Assembly (NCBI GenBank): GCA_943846595.1 | Contig: OX044355.1 | Location: forward strand, 2,099,501-2,163,500 | DNA from: an uncultured Polaribacter sp. | GTDB lineage: Bacteria > Bacteroidota > Bacteroidia > Flavobacteriales > Flavobacteriaceae | Direction: 5' to 3' | Length of the DNA stretch: 64,000 nt | In this document: piece by piece, positions 14,319 to 63,905 of the stretch | Layout of the letters: the number at the start of each line of letters is the position of its first letter | Numbering within the stretch: the stretch's first letter is position 1 | Made by a program: the position numbers and the translations under genes | Notes under the pieces: generated by a model | The model's database searches: none | Told to the model about the DNA's origin: nothing | Seen by the model: the letters and a program-made list of their open reading frames with translations, nothing else

Positions 14319-14627
14319 CTATAAAATTTCTGATAAGAATTCTTTCAAAACATCAAACTTATTGGTTTGTGTCTGACCTGCAAATTTACCATCTACAAAA
14401 GTAGCAAAAGTTGGAAGATTACTAACATCTGCCAATTTTCTGCTCTCTGGAAATTTCTCCGCGTCAACAATTACGAATGTTGCTGCTTCGTTTTCTGTAG
14501 ATAACTTCTTAAATTTTGGCTTCATAATTCTACAATTACCACACCATCCTGCAGAATATTGTACGATAACCGTTTGGTTATCGGCAACAATTTCTGCTAA
14601 ATTGTCTTGATTTAACTCTTGTATCAT
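14319..14627 (-). CDS. Thioredoxin-family protein with CGNC active site
   Basis: The 102-residue protein has a single thioredoxin domain with the active site GWCGNCRIMKPKF (CGNC instead of the usual CGPC) and the cis-proline segment SNLPTFATFVDG. No signal peptide is seen, so it is cytoplasmic. It sits 12 bases after the peroxiredoxin gene and is a natural reductant for it. The CGNC motif should alter its redox potential relative to classical thioredoxin. Confidence 0.92.
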   Translation of the reverse strand: MIQELNQDNLAEIVADNQTVIVQYSAGWCGNCRIMKPKFKKLSTENEAATFVIVDAEKFPESRKLADVSNLPTFATFVDGKFAGQTQTNKFDVLKEFLSEIL

Positions 14628-14639
14628 AGGAATCGAATA

Positions 14640-15281
14640 TTAGTTTGCTGCTAAATAAGCGGCAGTTCCTTTTGCATTTGGCGCCATCGCTGTTTTTCCA
14701 TCTTCCCAGTTTGCTGGACATACTTCACCGTTCTTTTGAACATGTGCATACGCATCTACCAAACGTATAAATTCATTTACATTTCTACCCACTGGCATGT
14801 GGTTTACTCCTTCATGAAATACCGTTCCTTCTTCATCAATTAAATAAGTAGCTCTGTAAGTTACGTTATCTCCTTCAACTTGAATGGTCTGTGTTGCTTC
14901 ATCAAAAGTTTCATTCGTAATGTCTAAAATGCCTAATACAGAAGATAAATTACGGTTACTATCTGCTAAAATTGGGTAGGTTACACCTTCAATTCCTCCA
15001 TTATCTTTTGCAGTACTTAACCATGCAAAATGCACTTCTGGAGTATCACAAGAGGCACCAATTACGATGGTGTTTCTTTTTTCAAATTCTCCTAAAGCAG
15101 CTTGAAATGCGTGTAATTCTGTAGGACACACAAATGTAAAATCTTTCGGATACCAAAATAACAACACTTTTTTGTTGTTTTTCTTAGCTTCTTCCAATAC
15201 ATTGATTTTAAATGTATCGCCCATTTCATTCATTGCATCTACGCTTAAATCTGGAAATTGTTTCCCTACTAATGTTGCCAT
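14640..15281 (-). CDS. 2-Cys peroxiredoxin (AhpC/Prx1 type)
   Basis: The 213-residue protein has the peroxidatic cysteine in DFTFVCPTELHAF, the resolving cysteine in NGEVCPANWEDG near the C-terminus, and the usual HEGVNHMPVGRN segment. It reduces peroxides using a dithiol donor, probably the CGNC thioredoxin encoded next. Length and motifs are complete. Confidence 0.94.
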   Translation of the reverse strand: MATLVGKQFPDLSVDAMNEMGDTFKINVLEEAKKNNKKVLLFWYPKDFTFVCPTELHAFQAALGEFEKRNTIVIGASCDTPEVHFAWLSTAKDNGGIEGVTYPILADSNRNLSSVLGILDITNETFDEATQTIQVEGDNVTYRATYLIDEEGTVFHEGVNHMPVGRNVNEFIRLVDAYAHVQKNGEVCPANWEDGKTAMAPNAKGTAAYLAAN

Positions 15282-15321
15282 CTTTTTTTTTATTGTTGAT
15301 TAATATTTATCTTTATAAGTA

Positions 15322-15329
15322 CAAATGTA
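15322..15329 (-). promoter_or_regulatory. -7 box (TACATTTG) for the peroxiredoxin operon
   Basis: CAAATGTA on the plus strand reads TACATTTG on the minus strand, matching TAnnTTTG. It lies 40 bases before the peroxiredoxin ATG, giving a leader of about 35 bases. Confidence 0.5.
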
Positions 15330-15351
15330 GAGAAAATGAAAGCCTAAATCG

Positions 15352-15391
15352 AAAAAAGTTGATGGGAACTTTTTATATTCTCATCAACTTT
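15352..15391 (-). terminator. Terminator after the sigma-54 activator gene
   Basis: AAAGTTGATGGGAA (15355-15368) pairs with TTCTCATCAACTTT (15378-15391), with one G-T pair. Read leftward, the hairpin is followed by a T-run (A-run at 15352-15357 on the plus strand), so it ends the leftward ABC-MscS-regulator unit before the peroxiredoxin promoter. Confidence 0.7.
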
Positions 15392-15425
15392 ATTGATACT
15401 AAACACTACTTTAAATAGTTTTACA

Positions 15426-16589
15426 CTATTTGGATGCATAAAGGGTAACATCCATCTCAGAAACTTCATTTTCACCGAGAATGATAAGCCGTTCAACAAC
15501 ATTTCTTAGTTCCCTAATATTTCCAGTCCAGTCGTATGTTTGTAACTTTTTAAGCGCATTTTCTGAAAAGGTCTTCAGAGGTGTTCCTTGTTCTTTAGCA
15601 ATTTTTGTGGAAAAGAATGCAACCAACAATGGAATATCTTCTCTTCGTTCGTTTAATGCTGGTACCTTTATTAAAATAACCGCCAATCTATGGTATAAAT
15701 CCTCTCTAAAACGACCTGCTTCAATTTCTTTCTTCAAATCTTTGTTTGTAGCTGCCACCACTCTAACATTTACTTTTATGTCTCTGTCGGAACCTACTCT
15801 TGATATTTTACTTTCTTGAAGTGCTCGCAATACTTTGGCTTGTGCAGACAAGCTCATGTCTCCTATTTCGTCCAAGAAAATGGTGCCTCCAGTAGCGGCT
15901 TCAAACTTTCCTGCTCGGTCTTTATTGGCACCTGTAAATGATCCTTTAACGTGGCCAAAAAGCTCACTTTCAATCAATTCCGAAGGGATTGCTGCACAAT
16001 TTACTTCAATCATAGGCGCTTTTGAACGGTCAGATTTTTCATGCAACCAATGGGCTACTAATTCTTTTCCAGTTCCATTTGGCCCTGTAATTAAAACCCT
16101 AGCATCTGTTACAGCAACTTTTTCGATGATCTCTTTGATGTGAGAAATTTCTGGGCTCTCACCAATCATTTCATAGTTTTTACTGACTTTCTTTTTCAAG
16201 CGTTTGTTCTCTAGAATCAGCTCTTTTTTATCCAAAGCATTTCGAACGGTATTTAACAAACGATTTAAATCTGGCGGTTTCGAAATATAGTCAAAAGCGC
16301 CCAATCGCATCGTATTTACTGCAGTATCTAAATCGCCATGACCCGAAATCATCACAATCGGAATTTCAGGTTTTACTTTTTTTACTTTCTCTAATACCTC
16401 AACACCATCCATTTTGGGCATTTTGATATCACACAAAACCAAATCATAATCGTTGTTTAAAATCATTTCTAGACCTTGCAAACCATCGGCTGCTTCTTCA
16501 ACTTCATAACCTTCATTTTCTTCAGAAATAATTTTTTTCAAAACTCTTCTAATGGCTGCTTCGTCTTCTATGATTAATATTTTGCTCAT
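15426..16589 (-). CDS. Sigma-54 activator/response regulator lacking a DNA-binding domain
   Basis: The 387-residue protein has a receiver domain (about 1-118; LVLCDIKMPKMDG holds the phospho-acceptor aspartate) and an AAA+ sigma-54 interaction domain (about 140-370) with Walker A TGPNGTGKE, loop 1 GSFTGA and Walker B GGTIFLDEIGDM. After NIRELRNVVERLIILGE only about a dozen residues remain, so the Fis-type helix-turn-helix of NtrC-like proteins (usually 440-480 residues) is missing. The loop reads GSFTGA rather than GAFTGA. It may activate sigma-54 from solution or through a partner. No histidine kinase is adjacent. Confidence 0.92.
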   Translation of the reverse strand: MSKILIIEDEAAIRRVLKKIISEENEGYEVEEAADGLQGLEMILNNDYDLVLCDIKMPKMDGVEVLEKVKKVKPEIPIVMISGHGDLDTAVNTMRLGAFDYISKPPDLNRLLNTVRNALDKKELILENKRLKKKVSKNYEMIGESPEISHIKEIIEKVAVTDARVLITGPNGTGKELVAHWLHEKSDRSKAPMIEVNCAAIPSELIESELFGHVKGSFTGANKDRAGKFEAATGGTIFLDEIGDMSLSAQAKVLRALQESKISRVGSDRDIKVNVRVVAATNKDLKKEIEAGRFREDLYHRLAVILIKVPALNERREDIPLLVAFFSTKIAKEQGTPLKTFSENALKKLQTYDWTGNIRELRNVVERLIILGENEVSEMDVTLYASK

Positions 16590-54166: not shown

Positions 54167-54213
54167 TTTTGTTTAGACTTAACCTTAAATTGTTAAACAT
54201 TATGTATCTTTGT
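54167..54213 (+). promoter_or_regulatory. Regulated promoter of the TetR-photolyase operon
   Basis: TGTTTA (54170-54175) and TAAACA (54194-54199) form an inverted repeat with an 18-base spacer. A -7 box TATCTTTG (54205-54212) follows five bases later. The same three elements at the same spacings occur upstream of the gene at 62804. The repeat covers the region where polymerase binds, so a repressor bound there would block transcription. Confidence 0.7.
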
Positions 54214-54232: not shown

Positions 54233-54889
54233 ATGGCAAGAAAAAAAACCGTTAAAAAGCAGGATTTAATCTCCATGTTTATGGAATACGTTTTAGAAAA
54301 CGACCATCCACCAAAATCTGTATTTAGTTTCGCAAAAGAGAATAATTTTGAAGAGGCTAGTTTTTACGAATTTTTCGGTTCGTTTGAAGCACTGGAAGGG
54401 GCTGTATTTGAAACTTTTTTTGATAACACATTGCAATTACTTTCTAAAAGTGAGGAATATCAAGATTATGATGCCAGAAACAAATTACTAAGTTTCTATT
54501 TTACATTCTTTGAACTGCTAACTGCTAACAGGAGTTATGTTGTTTACGCTTTTAACAAAGGAAAAAACAACCTTAAAAGCTTGCATAGCTTAAAAGGATT
54601 TCACAAACACTTCAAACAGTTTATAGATGATCTAGACATAGAAACACTGGACATTCAACAAGATCAGATAGAAAAATTTCAACACAAAGCCCTCCAAGAA
54701 TCTGCATGGATTCAGCTTTTAGTGACCATGAAGTTCTGGTTAGAAGACACATCATCTTCATTTGAAAAAACAGATGTTTTTATTGAAAAATCGGTCAACA
54801 CTAGTTTCGATTTATTAAACATCAAACCCTTGAAAAGCATTATTGACTTTGGAAAATTCCTATTCAAAGAAAAAATGGTGCAAAAATAA
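54233..54889 (+). CDS. TetR-family transcriptional regulator
   Basis: The 218-residue protein starts with a basic segment and a helix-turn-helix region of TetR type (LISMFMEYVLENDHPPKSVFSFAKENNFEEASFYEFFGSFEALEGAVFETFFD), with the diagnostic FYEFFGS pattern in the recognition helix region. The rest is helical, as expected for a ligand-binding domain. It is the first gene of the light-stress operon and probably binds the inverted repeat upstream. The inducer is not known. Confidence 0.88.
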   Translation: MARKKTVKKQDLISMFMEYVLENDHPPKSVFSFAKENNFEEASFYEFFGSFEALEGAVFETFFDNTLQLLSKSEEYQDYDARNKLLSFYFTFFELLTANRSYVVYAFNKGKNNLKSLHSLKGFHKHFKQFIDDLDIETLDIQQDQIEKFQHKALQESAWIQLLVTMKFWLEDTSSSFEKTDVFIEKSVNTSFDLLNIKPLKSIIDFGKFLFKEKMVQK

Positions 54890-54894
54890 AAACG

Positions 54895-56205
54895 ATGAAA
54901 ACATTAGACTCAATACCAACATCAAAAATTCAACGTGCCACAAAACTAGTAACAACGGGTGCAAAGGTTGGTGTGAACTATTTAAAATATTACGGTGACA
55001 AAATTGTTAATAACGAAATAGATGCCAAAGCAAGACTCAATGAAAACAATGCTGAAGACATCTACGACGGTTTAAAACAATTAAAGGGAAGTGCCTTAAA
55101 GGTTGCCCAGATGCTAAGTATGGAAAAGAGTATTCTTCCTGCAGCTTATGTAGAAAAATTTTCTTTGGCTCAATTTTCTGTACCTCCACTTTCGCCACCA
55201 TTGGTCAGTAAAACCTTTAAAAAATACTTTGGTAAAAACCCAAATGATATCTTTGATAAATTCAATTTGACTTCTGTAAATGCAGCCAGTATTGGTCAGG
55301 TTCACAAAGCAGAAAAAGACGGTAAAACACTTGCGGTTAAAATTCAATATCCAGGCGTTGCTGAAAGTGTTGCATCTGATTTGGCATTGGTAAAACCGAT
55401 TGCCATAAAGATGTTTAACATTCGAGGTAAAGACTCTGACAAATATTTTAAAGAGGTTGAGGACAAACTAACGGAGGAAACCAACTACATCTTAGAAATT
55501 GAGCAAAGTAAAGAAATTGTTGAAAAATGCAAGCACATTCCAAATTTAAAATTTCCTGAATATTATTCAAAATACTCTTCCGATAGGATCATTACAATGG
55601 ACTGGATGAAAGGAGAACACCTATCAGAGTTCACAGCACACAACAAGGATCCTGAGGTTTCAAATAAATTGGGACAAGCTTTGTGGGATTTTTATATGCA
55701 CCAAATTCACAACCTTCGAAAAGTACACGCAGACCCACATCCAGGAAATTTTTTAGTTTCAAAAGAAGCCGATTTGATTGCCTTAGATTTTGGTTGTATG
55801 AAAACCATTCCTGAAAAATTTTACATACCATATTTCGAATTGGCAAAACCCGAAAGTATTGCAGATCCTGCTATTTTTGAAAAAAAATTATACGAATTAG
55901 AAATCCTGAGAGCAGACGATTCAAAAGAAGAATTGGTATTTTTTAGAGCAATGTTTCACGAAATGTTGAGTTTATTTACCCAACCTTTTCATGGAGAAGA
56001 ATTCGATTTTTCGGATGCAGAATTCTTTGGACGCATTTCTGATTTAGGGGCAAAGTATGCCAAAAGTTCTGAATTAAAAAACATGAATGGAAACAGAGGT
56101 TCCAAACATTTTATTTATATTAACAGAACCTTTTTTGGCTTGTACAACCTAATGCATGACTTGAAAGCAACGAATGTGAAAATTAACAATTTTAATAACT
56201 TTTAA
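54895..56205 (+). CDS. ABC1/UbiB-family atypical kinase
   Basis: The 436-residue protein has the ABC1 hallmarks: the KxGQ-like region LKGSALKVAQMLSMEKSILP (KVAQ replaces the usual KxGQ), the nucleotide loop VNAASIGQVHKAEKDGKTLAVKIQYPG (alanine-rich loop), the catalytic HADPHPGNFLV and DFGCMKT. Family members support quinone synthesis or prenyl-lipid metabolism, and plant members protect against photo-oxidative stress. In a menaquinone-using bacterium the role is unknown. It starts five bases after the TetR stop. Confidence 0.9.
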   Translation: MKTLDSIPTSKIQRATKLVTTGAKVGVNYLKYYGDKIVNNEIDAKARLNENNAEDIYDGLKQLKGSALKVAQMLSMEKSILPAAYVEKFSLAQFSVPPLSPPLVSKTFKKYFGKNPNDIFDKFNLTSVNAASIGQVHKAEKDGKTLAVKIQYPGVAESVASDLALVKPIAIKMFNIRGKDSDKYFKEVEDKLTEETNYILEIEQSKEIVEKCKHIPNLKFPEYYSKYSSDRIITMDWMKGEHLSEFTAHNKDPEVSNKLGQALWDFYMHQIHNLRKVHADPHPGNFLVSKEADLIALDFGCMKTIPEKFYIPYFELAKPESIADPAIFEKKLYELEILRADDSKEELVFFRAMFHEMLSLFTQPFHGEEFDFSDAEFFGRISDLGAKYAKSSELKNMNGNRGSKHFIYINRTFFGLYNLMHDLKATNVKINNFNNF

Positions 56206-56822
56206 TGGCTTTTTATCAAAGAGAGGACATCGACAACTTAGAGAAAATTTTTAAAATAAATTTAATTAACAGTTGTTCTGGATTTAAATCTGCAAATCTT
56301 CTCGGTTCGATTTCGAATGAAGGAGTTTCCAATGTTGCAGTTTTTAGCTCCGTGATTCACTTAGGCTCTAACCCGCCTACCTTGGGCTTTATTTTAAGAC
56401 CTACAACGGTTCCAAGAGACACCTATAAAAACATAAAAGAAAGTGGTGTATTTACCATCAATCATATATATGAGGAAATTATAGAAGACGCACATCATAC
56501 TTCGGCGAAGTATCCAGAGAGCGTGTCCGAATTTGATATTACAAATTTAGAAGAGGAATATAAAGGGGCTTTTAAAGCACCTTTTGTAAAAGGATCTCCG
56601 GTTCAAATGAGTATGAAATTTATTGAAGAAATTCCGGTTCCCTCCAACAATGTAATGTTAATTGTTGCACAAATTGAGGAACTCTATATTCAGGATGCAC
56701 TTTTACAGAGTGATGGATTGATCAATCTTTCAATTGGAAAAGTTGCCACAATAAATGGATTGGATACCTATGCGATTCCAACCTTTAAAAAACAATTATC
56801 TTACCAAAGACCCAAAAAATAA
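56205..56822 (+). CDS. Flavin reductase-like FMN-binding protein
   Basis: The 205-residue protein has a split-barrel flavin-reductase fold with SCSGFKSANLLGSISNEGVSNVAVFSSVIHLGSNPP and LRPTTVPRDTYKNIKESGVFTINH. Such proteins bind FMN and reduce or carry flavins. Its start overlaps the stop of the ABC1 gene by one base. It may supply reduced flavin to the photolyases encoded downstream, which need FADH-minus; this is an inference. Confidence 0.88.
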   Translation: MAFYQREDIDNLEKIFKINLINSCSGFKSANLLGSISNEGVSNVAVFSSVIHLGSNPPTLGFILRPTTVPRDTYKNIKESGVFTINHIYEEIIEDAHHTSAKYPESVSEFDITNLEEEYKGAFKAPFVKGSPVQMSMKFIEEIPVPSNNVMLIVAQIEELYIQDALLQSDGLINLSIGKVATINGLDTYAIPTFKKQLSYQRPKK

Positions 56823-56834
56823 AATAAAAATGTC

Positions 56835-58259
56835 ATGAAAATTCTCGTTACAGGAGCAACAGGCTATATTGGTAAACGGTTGATTCCGTTGTTACTAAAT
56901 GATGGCCATACCGTTGTTTGTGCTGTACGAGACAAGGCAAGAGCTAAAAATTATTTCCGAGATCGGAAAAACATTGTACTTGTTGAGATAGACTTTCTAA
57001 ACTACGAGAGTTTGGAAGCCATTCCCAAAGATATAGAGAGTGCTTATTACCTGATTCATTCGATGTCAAATTCTGCAAAGGAATTTCATATATTGGAAGA
57101 GAAATGTGCATTTAACTTTAAACGATTTGCTGAAAAAACGGCTTTAAAACAAGTTATTTATTTAAGCGGAATTACCAATGACACCCAATTATCGAAACAT
57201 TTACTTTCGAGAAAAAATGTAGAAGAGACCTTGTCCTCCACTGTCTATGCTTTAACTACTTTTAAGGCGGGAATCATTGTTGGATCTGGAAGTTCATCCT
57301 TTGAAATTATTAGAGATATTGTTGAAAAACTACCTGTAATGGTGGCACCAAAGTGGCTGAATACAAAAACACAGCCTCTAGGCATTCGTGATGTATTGTC
57401 TTTTTTACACCGGGCACTAAAGAAAGAAGCATTGTACAACAAATCTTTTGATGTTTTTGGACCAGAGGTAATGACCTACAAAGAAATGCTTTTACAATTT
57501 GCAGAAGTTAGAGAATTGAAAAGGTGGATTTTTACGGTACCGGTAATGACGCCAAAGCTTTCTTCTTATTGGTTGTATTTCGTTACCTCTACCTCCTACA
57601 AATTGGCCAATTCGTTGGTAAATTCTATGGGTGTTGAAGTGATTGGAAACCAAAGTGCCATTAACAAAATATTAGAAGTAAATCCAATGACCTATAAACA
57701 GGCGGTTGAATTTGCATTCGTTAAAATAAAACAAAATAGTATCATCTCTAGCTGGAAAGATTCATACATCAGTAGTGGAAAACTAAAGAACTATGTTCAT
57801 GAATTTATTAATGTACCTAAGCACGGTTGTTTCCGAGATTTAAAGCGTCGAAAAATTGTAGACAGTGAGAAATCTTTGAATAAAATTTGGGCAATTGGTG
57901 GTGATACAGGCTGGTATTACGGTACTTTTTTATGGAAAGTAAGAGGTTTTATGGATCAATTTTTTGGAGGCGCTGGTTTGCGACGAGGAAGAAGACATCC
58001 TACGGAATTAAATGCAGGGGATGCTTTGGATTTTTGGCGTGTCATTTATGCAGATAAAAACAATCAAAAATTACTCTTATATGCTGAAATGGTATTGCCT
58101 GGAGAAGCATGGTTGGAATTTAAAATTGAAGATGGCACCTTATATCAAACAGCAACATTTCGTCCAAAGGGATTGGCTGGGCGGTTATATTGGTATTCCG
58201 TAGCCCCTTTTCATTGGTTTATTTTTAATGGGATGATTGATAAAATTTCTAAAACCTAA
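56835..58259 (+). CDS. NAD(P)-binding epimerase-like protein with C-terminal DUF2867
   Basis: The 474-residue protein starts with the Rossmann loop VTGATGYIGKRLIPLLL and atypical-SDR features (about 1-300), followed by a C-terminal DUF2867 domain (about 310-474; DTGWYYGTFLWKVRGFMDQFFGG, PGEAWLEFKI, ATFRPKGLAGRLYWYSVAPFH). This fusion is repeatedly found near photolyase genes in marine bacteria. The substrate is unknown; a quinone or carotenoid-like reductant is conceivable. Confidence 0.88.
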   Translation: MKILVTGATGYIGKRLIPLLLNDGHTVVCAVRDKARAKNYFRDRKNIVLVEIDFLNYESLEAIPKDIESAYYLIHSMSNSAKEFHILEEKCAFNFKRFAEKTALKQVIYLSGITNDTQLSKHLLSRKNVEETLSSTVYALTTFKAGIIVGSGSSSFEIIRDIVEKLPVMVAPKWLNTKTQPLGIRDVLSFLHRALKKEALYNKSFDVFGPEVMTYKEMLLQFAEVRELKRWIFTVPVMTPKLSSYWLYFVTSTSYKLANSLVNSMGVEVIGNQSAINKILEVNPMTYKQAVEFAFVKIKQNSIISSWKDSYISSGKLKNYVHEFINVPKHGCFRDLKRRKIVDSEKSLNKIWAIGGDTGWYYGTFLWKVRGFMDQFFGGAGLRRGRRHPTELNAGDALDFWRVIYADKNNQKLLLYAEMVLPGEAWLEFKIEDGTLYQTATFRPKGLAGRLYWYSVAPFHWFIFNGMIDKISKT

Positions 58260-58262
58260 CTT

Positions 58263-58403
58263 TTGAAAAAACAACATTTGCCCGAGAAAATATGTACGGT
58301 TTGTGAAAAACCATACCGTTGGAGAAAAAAGTGGGAAAAGAACTGGGAACATGTAAAATATTGTAGTGAAAGATGCAGAAGAAACAAGAAACAACAGGAT
58401 TAA
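58263..58403 (+). CDS. DUF2256 zinc-ribbon protein, 46 residues
   Basis: A TTG at 58263 opens a 46-residue frame: [39 protein letters not shown]. Two C-x-x-C or C-x-x-x-C pairs and the W-rich centre are the DUF2256 signature, often found beside photolyases. It starts three bases after the epimerase stop and overlaps the next gene by 31 bases in another frame. It is probably a small zinc protein in the light-stress unit. Confidence 0.85.
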
Positions 58404-59683
58404 TTTGGTTGACAAACAACCTTAGGGTTGGAGACAATAAATCCATCGAATTGGCATGTAAAAAACACGATCGAGTACTTGCTGTTTATGTATTCGATAA
58501 ACATATTTTTGAAAGCAACATTTTTGGCTTTAAAAAAATTGAACGCTACAGAGCACAATTTTTACTTGAAACACTGCGGGATTTAAAAAAACACTTAGCA
58601 CAAAAAAACATCACACTACTCACCTATTTTGATTTTCCAGAAGAGGTCATTCCTAAAGTTTGTGAAACCTACCAGGTAGCGGAGGTTTTTACGCAAAAAG
58701 AATGGACCAAAGAGGAAGTGCAAACATTCAAAAAAGTAGCTTCCAATCTCACTGGCATCTGTAAAATCACCGATTCCTATGATCAATTCTTATACCATCC
58801 AGAAGACATCAATATGGATTTTAAATCGATTCCTGCTGTGTTTACACAGTTCAGAAAAAAGGTCGAGAAATATGCATCAATAAGGCCCGAAAGCAAAAGC
58901 ATTCAGAAGGAAGATTCAAACCGTATTGAAAACAACACAAGGTTGCCAGACTTAACCACATTGGGCTATTCAGAAATAAAGAAAGATCCCAGGTCTGCTT
59001 TTCCATTTCATGGTGGAGAAAGTGAGGCCCTAAAGAGAATTGACTATTACTTCTTTGCATCTAAAAAACTAAGCGTTTACAAACAGACCCGCAATGGTTT
59101 AATTGGTTCCGACTACAGTTCAAAGCTCTCTCCTTGGCTAGCAAATGGAAGTATTTCTGCGAAAACTATTTATTGGAAAATTAAGGAATACGAAACTGAA
59201 AATGGCGCGAATAGTTCCACGTATTGGTTAATTTTTGAATTGATTTGGAGAGACTACTTCAAGTTCATTTCACTGAAACATGGGAATGCTTTTTTTAAGA
59301 TTGATGGAATTTTAGAAAAAAAATATGTCTGGAAATCAGAGGAAAAATTGGTTCAAAAATGGATCCACGGACAAACCAATGCGCCCTTTGTAAATGCAAA
59401 TATGATTGAATTGAAAGCAACCGGATTTATGAGCAATCGAGGCAGGCAAAATGTAGCCTCTTACTTTGCAAAAGAACTCTTGTTGGATTGGCGCATCGGA
59501 GCTGCTTACTTTGAATCGATGTTGATTGACTATGATGTGCATTCAAACTACGGAAACTGGCTCTACATATCGGGGGTTGGCAACGACCCAAGAGATCGTA
59601 AATTCAATATAGAGTTTCAAGCTGAACGTTATGATCCAAACAATCAGTATCAAAATAAATGGTTACAAAATCAACTTTTTTAG
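58373..59683 (+). CDS. Cryptochrome/photolyase, DASH-like
   Basis: The 436-residue protein has the N-terminal antenna domain ([20 protein letters not shown]) and the C-terminal FAD domain with [58 protein letters not shown] and the DASH-type end [25 protein letters not shown]. Relatives of this class repair cyclobutane dimers, mainly in single-stranded DNA, or act as light sensors. The ATG at 58373 lies inside the DUF2256 gene, so the two are coupled. Confidence 0.93.
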
Positions 59684-59686
59684 CAT

Positions 59687-61219
59687 ATGAAAATAGTCCG
59701 ATTACTTCTTGGAGATCAATTAAACAGTTCGCATTCTTGGTTTCAAGAAAAAGATGCGAACATCTTATATTGTCTGTTTGAAATGCGTCAAGAAACAAAT
59801 TACATAACCCACCACATTCAAAAAGTTACCGGTTTTTTTGCTGCCATGAGAGATTTCGCTGATGGCTTAACCAAAGCGGGGCATAAAGTAAAATATCTGA
59901 GCATATTAGATCCCGAAAACACCCACGTTTTAACCCAAAACTTAACACAACAGATCGAGTATTTTAAGGCAGATAAGTTTGAATACTTACTTCCCGACGA
60001 ATATCGTCTAGACAAACAACTAAAAGACTTCTGTAGCACATTAACAATAGAAAACTCGGTTACAGACACGGAGCATTTTTATACAAAAAGAGAGGATTTA
60101 GGAGTGTTTTTTGAGGGTAAAAAACAATTTTTGATGGAAAATTTTTATAGAAATATGAGAAAAAAACATCAAATACTAACCGTCAATGAGCAACCAGAAG
60201 GCGGTGTATGGAACTATGACAAAAACAACCGAAAAAAATGGAAAGAAAACACCTTGGTGCCGCCTTTTAAAAGTTTCGATAATAATGTAGTACCTATTTA
60301 TGAAGAAATCCAGCAAGCGGGTATAAAAACCATTGGAAAAATCAACCCAAAATATTTTGAATACCCTATAAACAGAAAGCAGGCACTTGAACAATTGGAT
60401 TATTTCTGTGCCCATTTATTGGTCCACTTTGGGGACTACCAAGATGCAATGCATACAAATCAAATTTATTTGTACCATTCCAGAATTTCATTTGCAATGA
60501 ATATCAAATTGATCTCACCAAAAGAAGTAATTGCCAAAACTCTGGCAAGGTATCGAGATCCAGAAAGTACTATTGAAATTTCACAAGTAGAGGGTTTTAT
60601 TCGACAAATATTAGGTTGGAGAGAATACATGCGAGGGATGTATTGGTCGCTCATGCCTAACTACAAAACACAAAACGCCTTGAACAATACCAATAAATTG
60701 CCCGATTTTTATTGGACAGGAAATACCAAGATGAATTGTTTAAAAAATGCAATCAACAACTCGCTAGACAACAGTTACGCGCACCACATACAACGTTTAA
60801 TGATTACTGGAAATTATGCGCTACTTACACAAACCAATCCAGATGAAGTAGATGCTTGGTATTTGGGCATTTATGCCGATGCTGTAGAATGGGTACAACT
60901 GCCCAATACACGTGGAATGAGTCAATTTGCAGATGGCGGAAAAATAGCAACAAAACCCTACATTTCTAGTGGAAGTTATGTGCATAAAATGGGAAATTAT
61001 TGCGATAGCTGTCACTATAATAAAAAAGAAAAAACAACCAAAGATGCATGTCCATTTAACAGCCTGTATTGGAATTTTTTAGACGATAAAAAAGAAGAAC
61101 TTTCAGGAAATTTTAGAATGGGAATGATGTACAGTTTATTGCGAAAAATTCCTGCAGAAAAATTATTTGAAATAAAAGAAAAAGCAGCACATATAATTGC
61201 AAACCCAAATGAATACTAA
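59687..61219 (+). CDS. Fe-S bacterial cryptochrome/photolyase, PhrB-like
   Basis: The 510-residue protein starts with RLLLGDQLNSSHSWFQEKDANILYCLFEM and has a photolyase FAD domain with REYMRGMYWSLMP and NNSLDNSYAHHIQRLMITGNYALL. Four cysteines that fit the 4Fe-4S ligands of Agrobacterium PhrB are visible: MNCLKNAIN, YCDSCHYN and DACPFNSLYW. PhrB-type enzymes repair (6-4) photoproducts. It begins three bases after the DASH-like gene. Confidence 0.94.
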   Translation: MKIVRLLLGDQLNSSHSWFQEKDANILYCLFEMRQETNYITHHIQKVTGFFAAMRDFADGLTKAGHKVKYLSILDPENTHVLTQNLTQQIEYFKADKFEYLLPDEYRLDKQLKDFCSTLTIENSVTDTEHFYTKREDLGVFFEGKKQFLMENFYRNMRKKHQILTVNEQPEGGVWNYDKNNRKKWKENTLVPPFKSFDNNVVPIYEEIQQAGIKTIGKINPKYFEYPINRKQALEQLDYFCAHLLVHFGDYQDAMHTNQIYLYHSRISFAMNIKLISPKEVIAKTLARYRDPESTIEISQVEGFIRQILGWREYMRGMYWSLMPNYKTQNALNNTNKLPDFYWTGNTKMNCLKNAINNSLDNSYAHHIQRLMITGNYALLTQTNPDEVDAWYLGIYADAVEWVQLPNTRGMSQFADGGKIATKPYISSGSYVHKMGNYCDSCHYNKKEKTTKDACPFNSLYWNFLDDKKEELSGNFRMGMMYSLLRKIPAEKLFEIKEKAAHIIANPNEY

Positions 61220-62702
61220 TAAAGAAATCATCGAAGTTGTCTGGCTAAAACGCGATTTACGGCTGGATGACAATGAAGTAATTTCCAATGCACTGGCATC
61301 GGGAAATCGTGTGCTTTTTGTCTATATTTTTGAAGATTCTCTTAGAAATGACAGGCATTATGATGAGCGACACTGGATCTTTATCAAGCAATCCATAGAA
61401 AATATAAACGATCGATTAAAAAAACACAATACACAGGTTTTAGCTGTACATTCAGAAGTAATTCCGTTTTTTAATCAGTTGCAAATTTTTTTTCAAATAG
61501 ACCATGTGTATTCCCATCAAGAAACCGGACTTTTAATCACCTACAACAGAGACAAATATTTTAAACGCTATTGCAATAACAACTCGATTGACTGGATTGA
61601 AAGCACTAATAATGGTGTTTTAAGAGGATTATTACATCGAGAGGATTGGTTTGAAAACTGGAATCGATACATGCATGACGAAAGATTTTGTTTTGAACCG
61701 AAAACAAAACAATTGATAACGGTTGCAGAAATAACAGAAATATCAAAAGTTTTTAATCTTACTGATTTAAAAACAAAGACATCGCAAATCTTTCAAAAAG
61801 GAGGGACTACTACCGCATGGAAATATGCAAATTCTTTCTTTGAAGAAAGACACAAATCCTATCTATTTAATATTTCTAAACCCGAAAAATCAAGAACGAG
61901 TTCAAGTAGATTATCTCCATATATTGCCTGGGGAAATATCTCTATAAGAGAAGTTTTTCAAAAAGCGACACAACTAAAATCTGAAAAAAAAGACGATCGA
62001 CATTTGGGTGCATTTATCTCAAGATTGCGATGGCAAGCACATTTTATTCAGAAATTTGAAATGGAACATACCATGGAAGCAGCGAGTATTAATAAAGGGT
62101 ATCACAAACTTAAAAAAAGCATCTCTACATCCTATAAAAAAGCTTGGAAAGAAGGAAATACAGGGTTTCCACTGGTAGACGCTAGTATGCGTTGTTTGAA
62201 TGAAACTGGTTTTTTAAATTTTAGAATGCGTGCCATGCTCGTTTCTTTCTTTACACACATTCTATGGCAACCTTGGCAAGAAGCAACATCGCATTTGTCT
62301 AAGATGTTTTTGGATTTTGAACCTGGAATTCATTTTCCACAGATACAGATGCAAGCAGGGGAAACTGGAATCAATAATTTAAGAATTTATAGTCCGGTAA
62401 AAAACAGTCTCGAGCATGATACGAATGCTGTATTTATAAAAAAATGGTGTCCTGAATTGGCAAATTTACCCATTAATTTTATTCATGAACCATCTCTAAT
62501 GACGCCTTTGGACATGCAGTTTAACAATTTTAAATTGGGCGTCGATTATCCGCATCCGATTGTTGATATTAAAGAAAATAGAAAAAAAGCAAGCGATATT
62601 CTCTGGAATTTAAAAAAGAATCCACAGGTACGATCGGAAAGTTTTAGAATCCTTAAAAAACATACGATCACGGACCGAAACAGACTCCTCCGAAGCGATT
62701 AG
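61209..62702 (+). CDS. Third cryptochrome/photolyase, distinct subclass
   Basis: The 497-residue protein starts with VVWLKRDLRLDDNEVISNAL, an antenna domain typical of class I-like enzymes, then the FAD domain with SRLSPYIAWGNISIREVF, FISRLRWQAHFIQKFE, FPLVDASMRCLNETGFLNFRMRAMLVSF, but the usual NGGWQW region is replaced by GIHFPQIQMQAGETGINNLRIYSPVK. This places it in a separate bacterial subclass whose lesion specificity I cannot tell. The ATG at 61209 overlaps the end of the Fe-S photolyase gene by 11 bases. Confidence 0.92.
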   Translation: MNTNKEIIEVVWLKRDLRLDDNEVISNALASGNRVLFVYIFEDSLRNDRHYDERHWIFIKQSIENINDRLKKHNTQVLAVHSEVIPFFNQLQIFFQIDHVYSHQETGLLITYNRDKYFKRYCNNNSIDWIESTNNGVLRGLLHREDWFENWNRYMHDERFCFEPKTKQLITVAEITEISKVFNLTDLKTKTSQIFQKGGTTTAWKYANSFFEERHKSYLFNISKPEKSRTSSSRLSPYIAWGNISIREVFQKATQLKSEKKDDRHLGAFISRLRWQAHFIQKFEMEHTMEAASINKGYHKLKKSISTSYKKAWKEGNTGFPLVDASMRCLNETGFLNFRMRAMLVSFFTHILWQPWQEATSHLSKMFLDFEPGIHFPQIQMQAGETGINNLRIYSPVKNSLEHDTNAVFIKKWCPELANLPINFIHEPSLMTPLDMQFNNFKLGVDYPHPIVDIKENRKKASDILWNLKKNPQVRSESFRILKKHTITDRNRLLRSD

Positions 62703-62741: not shown

Positions 62742-62788
62742 TTTTGTTTAATCATTAACATAAAACATTAAACATTTTGTATCTTTGT
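62742..62788 (+). promoter_or_regulatory. Regulated promoter of the TIGR03643 unit
   Basis: TGTTTA (62745-62750) and TAAACA (62769-62774) form the inverted repeat with an 18-base spacer, and a TATCTTTG -7 box follows (62780-62787). Element order and spacing are the same as at 54167-54213. Transcription should start near 62794, about ten bases before the ATG. Confidence 0.7.
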
Positions 62789-62803: not shown

Positions 62804-63229
62804 ATGATTGCAAACACAACCTACAATAACAGAGAGACAACACGAATGATCAATGACCTCATAGGTCCCTCGTATTCTTTTTTTGAAGCCATTCGACGAA
62901 AGGGTGTAGGATCTAAAAGAATGATGATATCCAGTGTAAGTGAAGGCTTTCAAAAAATGATGAATACGGTTTCTGACATCAATTACGCAAATATTGAGCT
63001 GCGCGAAAAAGGGATTTTGGTACACATCAATAAGGGATTGGAAGTTTACAGTTGGGCAATTCCATATTACCAACTCCACACCTACAGAACAAATGGGTAT
63101 AGCATCTATGCACAAGGAAATTTTGTGAAATTTGCCAATAACAAATTGCTAAAGGAGAACAAATCATTTATCGAAAAACTAACGGATTTAAAAATCGAGA
63201 ACGATAAAAATTACGCTTTTTACGAATGA
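62804..63229 (+). CDS. Unknown protein in the photolyase regulon
   Basis: From the ATG at 62804 the protein has 141 residues, begins MIANTTYNNRETTRMINDLIGP, and appears to be a mixed alpha/beta protein (SYSFFEAIRRKGVGSKRMMISSVSEGF, ELREKGILVHINKGLEVYSWAIPYYQLHTYRTN). The earlier in-frame codon at 62777 lies inside the promoter. I do not recognise a family. Its stop overlaps the next ATG (ATGA), so it works as a unit with the TIGR03643 protein. Confidence 0.8.
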   Translation: MIANTTYNNRETTRMINDLIGPSYSFFEAIRRKGVGSKRMMISSVSEGFQKMMNTVSDINYANIELREKGILVHINKGLEVYSWAIPYYQLHTYRTNGYSIYAQGNFVKFANNKLLKENKSFIEKLTDLKIENDKNYAFYE

Positions 63230-63501
63230 TAAAACTAGAGGAAATTGCCATCGACAGAGTCATAGAGATGGCTTGGGAAGACAGAACTACTTTTGAAGCC
63301 ATTGAATATCAATTCGGTTTAAAAGAGCAAGAAGTGATCAACTTAATGCGCAAGCAAATGAAGTTGAAGAGTTTTAAACTTTGGAGAGAAAGAGTTCAGG
63401 GAAGAAAAACAAAGCATGAAAAATTGAGAACTTTCGAAAAAGGAAGGTTTAAATGTAGCCGGCAGCGATCGATTTCCAATAACGGTATTTCAAAAAGGTA
63501 A
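63226..63501 (+). CDS. TIGR03643/DUF2805-family protein
   Basis: The 91-residue protein starts IKLEEIAIDRVIEMAWEDRTTFEAIEYQFGLKEQEVINLMRKQMKLKSFKLWRERVQGRKTKHEKL, a helix-turn-helix-like segment with the WEDRTTF motif of the TIGR03643 family, often encoded beside photolyases and DUF2256 proteins. The basic tail could bind nucleic acid. It is the second gene of the small unit. Confidence 0.88.
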   Translation: MIKLEEIAIDRVIEMAWEDRTTFEAIEYQFGLKEQEVINLMRKQMKLKSFKLWRERVQGRKTKHEKLRTFEKGRFKCSRQRSISNNGISKR

Positions 63502-63680: not shown

Positions 63681-63905
63681 ATGGAACTAATTGAAAAAGC
63701 TTTAGAATACGAAAAAAGGAAAATGCGATTTCCAACTACGAGTGATCGAATTATGGCAGCTAGAGAAGCGAAAGATTTAATTTTAAGTTTGAATGAGATT
63801 TTCAAAAAAAATAAAGATCCCAACATCATGGAAATTATGAAACGACTTACAGTAATAAAACAAAGAATCGAGAAGCGTTTAAAGGGAAAACCTTTAACAT
63901 CATAA
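63681..63905 (+). CDS. Small helical protein, unknown
   Basis: The 74-residue protein (MELIEKALEYEKRKMRFPTTSDR, AAREAKDLILSLNEIFKKNKD, MKRLTVIKQRIEKRLKG) looks like two charged helices. I do not recognise a family. The stretch 63502-63680 before it contains no gene that I can support. The frame could be a real small gene or a chance frame. Confidence 0.55.
   Translation: MELIEKALEYEKRKMRFPTTSDRIMAAREAKDLILSLNEIFKKNKDPNIMEIMKRLTVIKQRIEKRLKGKPLTS

Follow-up and report, generated by a model that had tools for sequence, protein, structure and literature searches.

A photolyase operon of Polaribacter and a promoter element shared with carotenoid genes: a candidate regulon of a B12-type MerR light sensor

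Why should several photolyase relatives of different classes lie in a single run of genes, and which regulator switches them on? The question is raised by a stretch of DNA of an uncultured Polaribacter sp. (assembly GCA_943846595.1, contig OX044355.1, positions 2,099,501 to 2,163,500), 64,000 nucleotides long and here called the window, in which an earlier note had recognized a TetR gene and seven tightly packed genes behind it, three of them coding for photolyase relatives; all the named genes were found, with the spacing described. The run is a real and conserved operon for photoprotection and DNA photorepair, a cluster as such of a known kind. We describe here an inverted-repeat element placed at two of its promoters, and argue that the operon is probably, although far from certainly, under the control of a light sensor of the B12-type LitR/CarH MerR group, which would bind this element, shared with carotenoid genes.

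The consensus element is a symmetric inverted repeat of 30 bp, TGTTTAAC-N14-GTTAAACA, with a TATCTTTG-like box lying 3' of the repeat in the photolyase operon. In the window genome the strict element, accompanied by the box, is present exactly twice, at the promoters of the TetR gene (gene 01) and of gene 09 (Table 1); at the former the start codon is found 20 nt past the box. As far as the literature was searched, the shared element is new. A TTG 17-23 nt upstream of TAnnTTTG, which we take to be the standard Bacteroidetes promoter motif, was found in none of 65 TetR upstream regions. Control of proteorhodopsin by the same element was also considered: a third strict half-site match, devoid of the box, lies near the rhodopsin gene, within the overlapping 3' ends of two genes, presumably blh-like and yaaA-like, and was taken as chance.

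Recurrence of the element was evaluated in a set of 80 loci, hereafter the named loci, mostly from Polaribacter and Winogradskyella, fetched through CryX, the divergent photolyase/cryptochrome-family protein encoded by gene 08, and representing the best 80 of 204. Allowing up to 3 mismatches, the element was found before TetR in 62/64 loci and before gene 09 in 66/79, and each of eleven other genes was preceded by it in at most 2 loci (n=72-80); in a letter-shuffled control it was found in 3/1280. The flavin reductase gene (gene 03) is preceded by the element in 9/73 loci, including all 8 scanned ones without the TetR-ABC1 pair. Similarly, among loci of the wider family, operons opening with the SRPBCC gene feature it before this gene in 10 cases out of 10, with no more than one half-site mismatch, and nine of them are devoid of TetR.

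Searching 59 genomes produced 64 strict site readings, distributed over 33 genomes and including some pairs in which one palindrome was read on both strands, as compared with 10 for the reversed pattern. One-mismatch searches without the box were dominated by chance, the reversed control giving 126 and 128 matches versus 60 and 81 for the true pattern. From 37 stretches, fetched around selected sites, 42 orientations were read, 6 of which were followed by a tiny reading frame or by none. Among the genes following the element are TetR, flavin reductase, gene 09, stand-alone CryX, SDR and a crtI-like gene; in another family a merR gene follows it. Fasciclin-like lipoprotein genes lie behind the element in L233, L237, L240, L248, L249 and L257, several of them adjoining merR; the domain scan of this set covered the L233 protein.

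The carotenoid genes point to a candidate regulator. At genome positions 1949605-1953355 the window genome carries a cluster merR-crtI-crtB-crtZ, in which the crt names are those we presume to apply, Pfam giving Amino_oxidase for crtI. The merR product carries both a MerR_1 (PF13411) and a B12-binding_2 (PF02607) domain, the combination of the LitR/CarH proteins. The motifs W-x9-EH (WQTETLLPAHEH in the window genome) and ExHxxG (EIHELG) are found in 21/21 full-length copies, two further copies being fragments; we take W-x9-EH and (E/D)xHxxG to be marks of the B12-dependent members. Comparison of coordinates placed many element sites just 3' of a LitR/CarH-like merR. When merR and its flanks were fetched from 20 of 32 same-genus relatives, the gene after merR was in all 20 a homologue of the window-genome crtI (58-96% identical within the part retrieved). 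Between the two genes the element was present, with 1-3 mismatches, again in 20/20; the shuffle fraction was 0/300 in 18 relatives and 0.003 in 2. In 17/20 of these spacers the box lies inside the element, in contrast to the downstream position observed in the photolyase operon: a blocking repressor fits both arrangements. A variant repeat, with 3 mismatches, precedes merR itself in 4 of the 20 relatives. Two genomes with no TetR match at E<=1e-20 nevertheless feature the element: in G131, which is 100% complete, between merR and crtI, and in G363 upstream of merR.

Taken together, these data suggest the following mechanism. The element at the two promoters of the operon would, most likely, be occupied in the dark by a LitR/CarH-type MerR repressor, the candidate being the one encoded beside crtI, crtB and crtZ. 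Light would destroy the adenosyl-B12 of the repressor, so releasing transcription of the photolyases and, in the relatives, of the carotenoid genes likewise. Binding of MerR to the element, release by light and the joint function of the genes are what we infer; TetR, itself a member of the regulon, would have a subordinate regulatory part within the unit. As far as the literature was searched, this B12-MerR regulon is a new hypothesis, and no report on LitR in Flavobacteria was found among the papers listed in searches of the open-access literature.

A related arrangement is known from Pseudomonas, where, according to the consulted sections of PMC9758184, class II LitR acts through TGTACA-N12-TGTACA to repress a promoter, inducible by light, of a phrB-containing region. 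The Pseudomonas clusters of this type (PplR/PmlR: phrB, SDR, cryB, ufaM, folE) resemble the Polaribacter one in joining a MerR/LitR-type regulator with a photolyase, a cryptochrome and an SDR, and in having operators overlapping or near the promoter (PMC9758184). They differ in gene set, and, in the same sections, class II LitR is described as working with a LOV partner and as independent of B12 (PMC9758184).

Several observations weigh against the assignment to MerR. The Polaribacter element, TGTTTAAC-N14-GTTAAACA, differs from the Pseudomonas operator given in PMC9758184 in both sequence and spacing. It was missing before gene 09 in 13/79 named loci, and was found neither at many of the most distant CryX loci nor at L128, L134, L135, L139, L142 and L148. 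It also precedes genes for a fasciclin lipoprotein, for DUF2452 and for a protein which we take to be TonB-receptor-like. In the window genome, the copy within the merR-crtI spacer is weak (4 mismatches, shuffle fraction 0.03), and no good copy was found upstream of merR (7 mismatches). Across the 59 genomes, TetR homologues are present in 30/33 with the element and 5/26 without (odds ratio 42), merR in 32/33 and 13/26, respectively (odds ratio 32): co-occurrence does not separate the two regulators, and leans slightly to TetR. Moreover, one distant TetR gene, in G301, carries a 3-mismatch copy upstream.

This last fact, the position of TetR as first gene directly behind the element, and the co-occurrence just reported would all be accounted for by a local TetR repressor acting on the element, autoregulating its own gene and controlling the operon, with the carotenoid genes of other species as further targets. 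We hold this to be unlikely. The element is retained in operons from which TetR-ABC1 is absent, and of 10 genomes carrying the operon without this TetR, one (G306) gave no TetR match at E<=1e-10 and nine only distant ones (42-47% identity), 8 of which have no good copy upstream (5-6 mismatches); G131 and G363, lacking a TetR match at E<=1e-20, feature the element between merR and crtI or upstream of merR. TetR, the regulator named in the earlier note, is thus probably not the key switch: because the element is kept where TetR-ABC1 is absent, and is found between merR and crtI, the B12-type MerR is the likely master switch and TetR a secondary regulator. For the same reasons, namely the sites at crtI or merR in TetR-less genomes and the distant TetR genes without a good copy, the LitR/CarH-like MerR is ranked first and TetR second. 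A shade less probable than TetR is another reader: an ECF (extracytoplasmic function) sigma factor, or else an activator that responds to singlet oxygen or to ultraviolet (UV) radiation and not to light itself. A gene lying between merR and crtI in G363 is presumably sigma-factor-like, and in Vibrio cholerae, in the consulted parts of PMC5241685, blue-light induction of operons with photolyase-family genes is ascribed to ChrR/SigmaE and MerR via reactive oxygen. However, the symmetry of the repeat and the spacing of its halves by two helical turns are more in keeping with a DNA-binding protein acting as a dimer or tetramer than with a sigma factor. Moreover, the box occupies two different places relative to the element.

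That the genes are merely packed together, separate and unregulated, and kept so by chance or hitch-hiking, could be argued from two larger gaps in the run, which measure about 178 nt upstream of TspO and 179 nt upstream of gene 11. We consider this very improbable: genes 01-10 and 13-17 are found together in 56/80 named loci, and most junctions are small gaps or overlaps. Longer gaps, along with the copy of the element that stands before gene 09, suggest the existence of more than one promoter in the run. Gaps between genes 01 to 08 measure 5, -1, 12, 3, -31, 3 and about -11 nt in the window, and the medians across the named loci are 5, 0, 5, 2, -31, 1 and -11 nt.

Table 1. Features of the photolyase operon and of its promoter elements; coordinates are those of the window unless marked as genome positions.
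Feature	Position	Strand	Basis or remark
Element upstream of TetR, TGTTTAGA-N14-GTTAAACA	54170..54199	.	TATCTTTG box 54205-54212
Gene 01, TetR-family regulator (TetR_C_23)	54233..54889	+	Pfam domain
Gene 02, ABC1/UbiB-like atypical kinase	54895..56205	+	Pfam domain
Gene 03, flavin-reductase-like protein	56205..56822	+	Pfam domain
Gene 04, SDR/epimerase with C-terminal DUF2867	56835..58259	+	Pfam domain
Gene 05, DUF2256 small protein, TTG start	58263..58403	+	Pfam domain
Gene 06, CRY-DASH	58373..59683	+	TIGR02765
Gene 07, predicted prokaryotic (6-4) photolyase, Cys 351, 439, 442, 455	59687..61219	+	PF04244
Gene 08, CryX, divergent photolyase/cryptochrome-family protein	about 61209..62702; listed frame opens at TTG 61197	+	PF03441
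Second element copy, upstream of gene 09, TGTTTAAT-N14-ATTAAACA	62745..62774	.	TATCTTTG box 62780-62787
Gene 09, about 141 aa, no Pfam family	62804..63229	+	
Gene 10, DUF2805/TIGR03643 small protein	63226..63501	+	
Gene 11, 74-aa protein, no Pfam family	63681..63905	+	
Genes 12-17 (71-aa paralogue, SDR, GPx, TspO, SRPBCC-like, CPD-type photolyase)	beyond the window, after gene 11	same strand	
Gene 17, fourth photolyase, CPD-type	outside the window, genome 2165976-2167283	same strand	

The gene content and order of the run, as observed, fit the three photolyase relatives of the earlier note, each being of another class (Table 1). The end assigned to the unit at 62702 was instead premature, since genes 09-17 continue on the same strand, the last encoding a fourth photolyase, in which the active-site residues of the cyclobutane pyrimidine dimer (CPD) type are kept in the alignment; the next gene 3' is presumably a uridine kinase. 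When the whole genome was searched for PF03441, three members were obtained, each of them lying within this run; counting the DPRP-type gene 07, the run holds four genes of the photolyase family in 9.4 kb (genome 2157873-2167283). Coverage of both cyclobutane dimers and (6-4) photoproducts, as had been proposed, is consistent with the three subclasses, although the CPD-type enzyme turned out to be the fourth gene, lying beyond the unit then delimited. The accessory products are predicted to be redox, TspO, peroxidase and other proteins; that the flavin reductase supplies flavin and that the ABC1 gene protects membranes are guesses. The gene 11 protein and its 71-aa relative (gene 12; L005 3480-3695) adjoin as a pair. 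Gene 16 has no Pfam match, and we take its product to be SRPBCC-like; for gene 09 a fold search gave at best a weak PH-like match (E 4e-3), not used as evidence.

All eight genes of the earlier note are present in 60/80 named loci, which argues against a chance grouping; of the other 20, some are short or cut by contig ends, and some are truly devoid of TetR-ABC1 or DASH. The three photolyase relatives are found together in 76/80. In a second set of 59 loci from the wider family, all eight genes are present in 18, the three relatives in 25, and CryX alone among the tested genes in 11: the three-subclass unit is conserved in part of the Flavobacteriaceae. The genes appear to move as three parts, {TetR, ABC1, flavin reductase, SDR-DUF2867}, {DUF2256, DASH, (6-4), CryX, DUF2805} and {SRPBCC, SDR, photolyase}. 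CRY-DASH was not found in the otherwise similar operons of L011, L042, L048 and L074, in the first three of which DUF2256 directly overlaps slot 07, the position of gene 07.

Within 299 family genomes, CryX is present in 86 (E<=1e-60), rhodopsin in 71 over the cut-off, one match below it (G045) having been dropped beforehand, and both in 44 (Fisher p about 1e-11, kinship uncorrected). In G191 (contig 3, 1033664-1036841) a rhodopsin gene lies at most about 1 kb from CryX, on the opposite strand. Clustering of photolyase and related genes in rhodopsin-bearing Flavobacteriia has already been reported (PMC5932025), the consulted parts of that report giving no subclass, regulator or promoter element. 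Photolyases are likewise grouped in a UV-B-inducible operon of Synechococcus PCC 7335, where, in the consulted parts of PMC9649867, they are co-transcribed; that operon, however, contains two genes, the second belonging to a PhrSph98-like bifunctional class.

Gene 06 scores 498.8 bits against TIGR02765, well above the curated cut-off of 317.05, and falls within the CRY-DASH group. CRY-DASH enzymes are known for single-stranded DNA, as the consulted parts of PMC5241685 also state for those of Vibrio. In L151 (about 14594-15751) a DASH-like protein with an altered flavin-site motif was observed. Gene 07 matches PF04244 with 239.6 bits and PDB 7ykn with 540 bits; having the DPRP domain and the four cluster cysteines, it is a prokaryotic (6-4) photolyase of the FeS-BCP type, with repair activity and cluster predicted from its sequence. 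Slot 07 is bimodal: among 113 full-length proteins, from L006-L085 and L116-L175 and including the window's, 54 have all four cysteines, 59 have none, and no intermediates occur. A quick tree built from four proteins encoded nearby requires a minimum of 7 changes of the cysteine state over 79 scored rows, or 4 if only well-supported branches are counted. Members of the family without these cysteines are described as subgroup M in the consulted parts of PMC9178010, and both forms occur in slot 07. Unlike the situation described there, the four-Cys and the Cys-less form alternate at a single, constant place in the operon, the latter being probably subgroup M; as far as the literature was searched, this exchange is new.

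CryX has both photolyase domains (PF03441, 199 bits) and no close solved relative, the best one scoring only 125 bits. A fold search listed 50 structures with 16-23% identity to it, among them photolyases of classes I and III, DASH, animal (6-4) enzymes and the cryptochromes of plants and animals. At the sites which we take to be E. coli Phr E274, N341, M345 and W384, the literature numbering being one less than the alignment index, CryX has R, F, A and M, and so lacks the classical CPD/eukaryotic (6-4) active site. Only W359 of the Trp triad is kept, W306 and W382 being gone along with the usual electron-transfer chain. The position facing N5 of flavin adenine dinucleotide, where Asn, Asp or Cys is usual, is taken by a His, found without exception in 50 aligned members; in the proteins of haloarchaea and Nostoc, Asn or Asp occupies this position, and a Trp is retained at 382. 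The four canonical active-site residues are missing from the clade as a whole, and its core has in addition lost two residues of the Trp triad and the Asn at N5. Since the structure model has low confidence around the flavin pocket, statements on the pocket rely on alignment. CryX is not a recognized (6-4) or CPD class: in a tree of 41 rows, with poorly supported deeper branches, its clade has a bootstrap of 100, apart from class III CPD photolyases and plant CRY. Relatives are found in Vibrio, Pseudoalteromonas, Tritonibacter, Novosphingobium, Duffyella, Deinococcus, haloarchaea and Nostoc; 90 plasmid records matched, and three weaker ones among them, placed in the tree, group with class III instead. 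Short photolyase-like proteins (371-382 aa), apparently lacking the N-terminal antenna domain, adjoin CryX in L156, L158 and L163.

Neighbours of CryX elsewhere include DUF2256 in Tritonibacter and, some 3 kb away in Vibrio fortis, flavin reductase and TIGR03643. Two Deinococcus plasmids encode a fusion of CryX with a uracil-DNA glycosylase domain of the UDG superfamily (L179 5980-8262; L189 2992-5313); no report on this fusion or on DUF2805 was found among the papers listed in searches of the open-access literature, and the CryX clade with its glycosylase fusion is new as far as this was searched. When a dimer that contains deaminated cytosine is photoreversed, uracil remains, and a glycosylase partner would therefore make sense. 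The fusion favours a repair-linked role of CryX over that of the light sensor which the earlier note had considered for the unit, a role less likely though still conceivable. Tentatively, and with considerable doubt, CryX may be an undescribed photolyase-fold class acting together with uracil-DNA glycosylase, its substrates being, for example, UV dimers that contain uracil after deamination. It would employ a flavin flanked by His and dispense with the usual Trp chain and CPD pocket; in Flavobacteriaceae it would be one output of a B12-light-sensor regulon also driving carotenoid synthesis.

CryX points to a widespread photolyase-fold class, of interest for its glycosylase fusion and lack of a close solved relative. 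The exchange in slot 07 can serve as a natural experiment on what the iron-sulfur cluster does in prokaryotic (6-4) photolyases, its function being described as yet unknown in the consulted parts of PMC12082625. For the light response of marine Flavobacteriia, one 30-bp element and one candidate light sensor make up a concrete, testable regulon.

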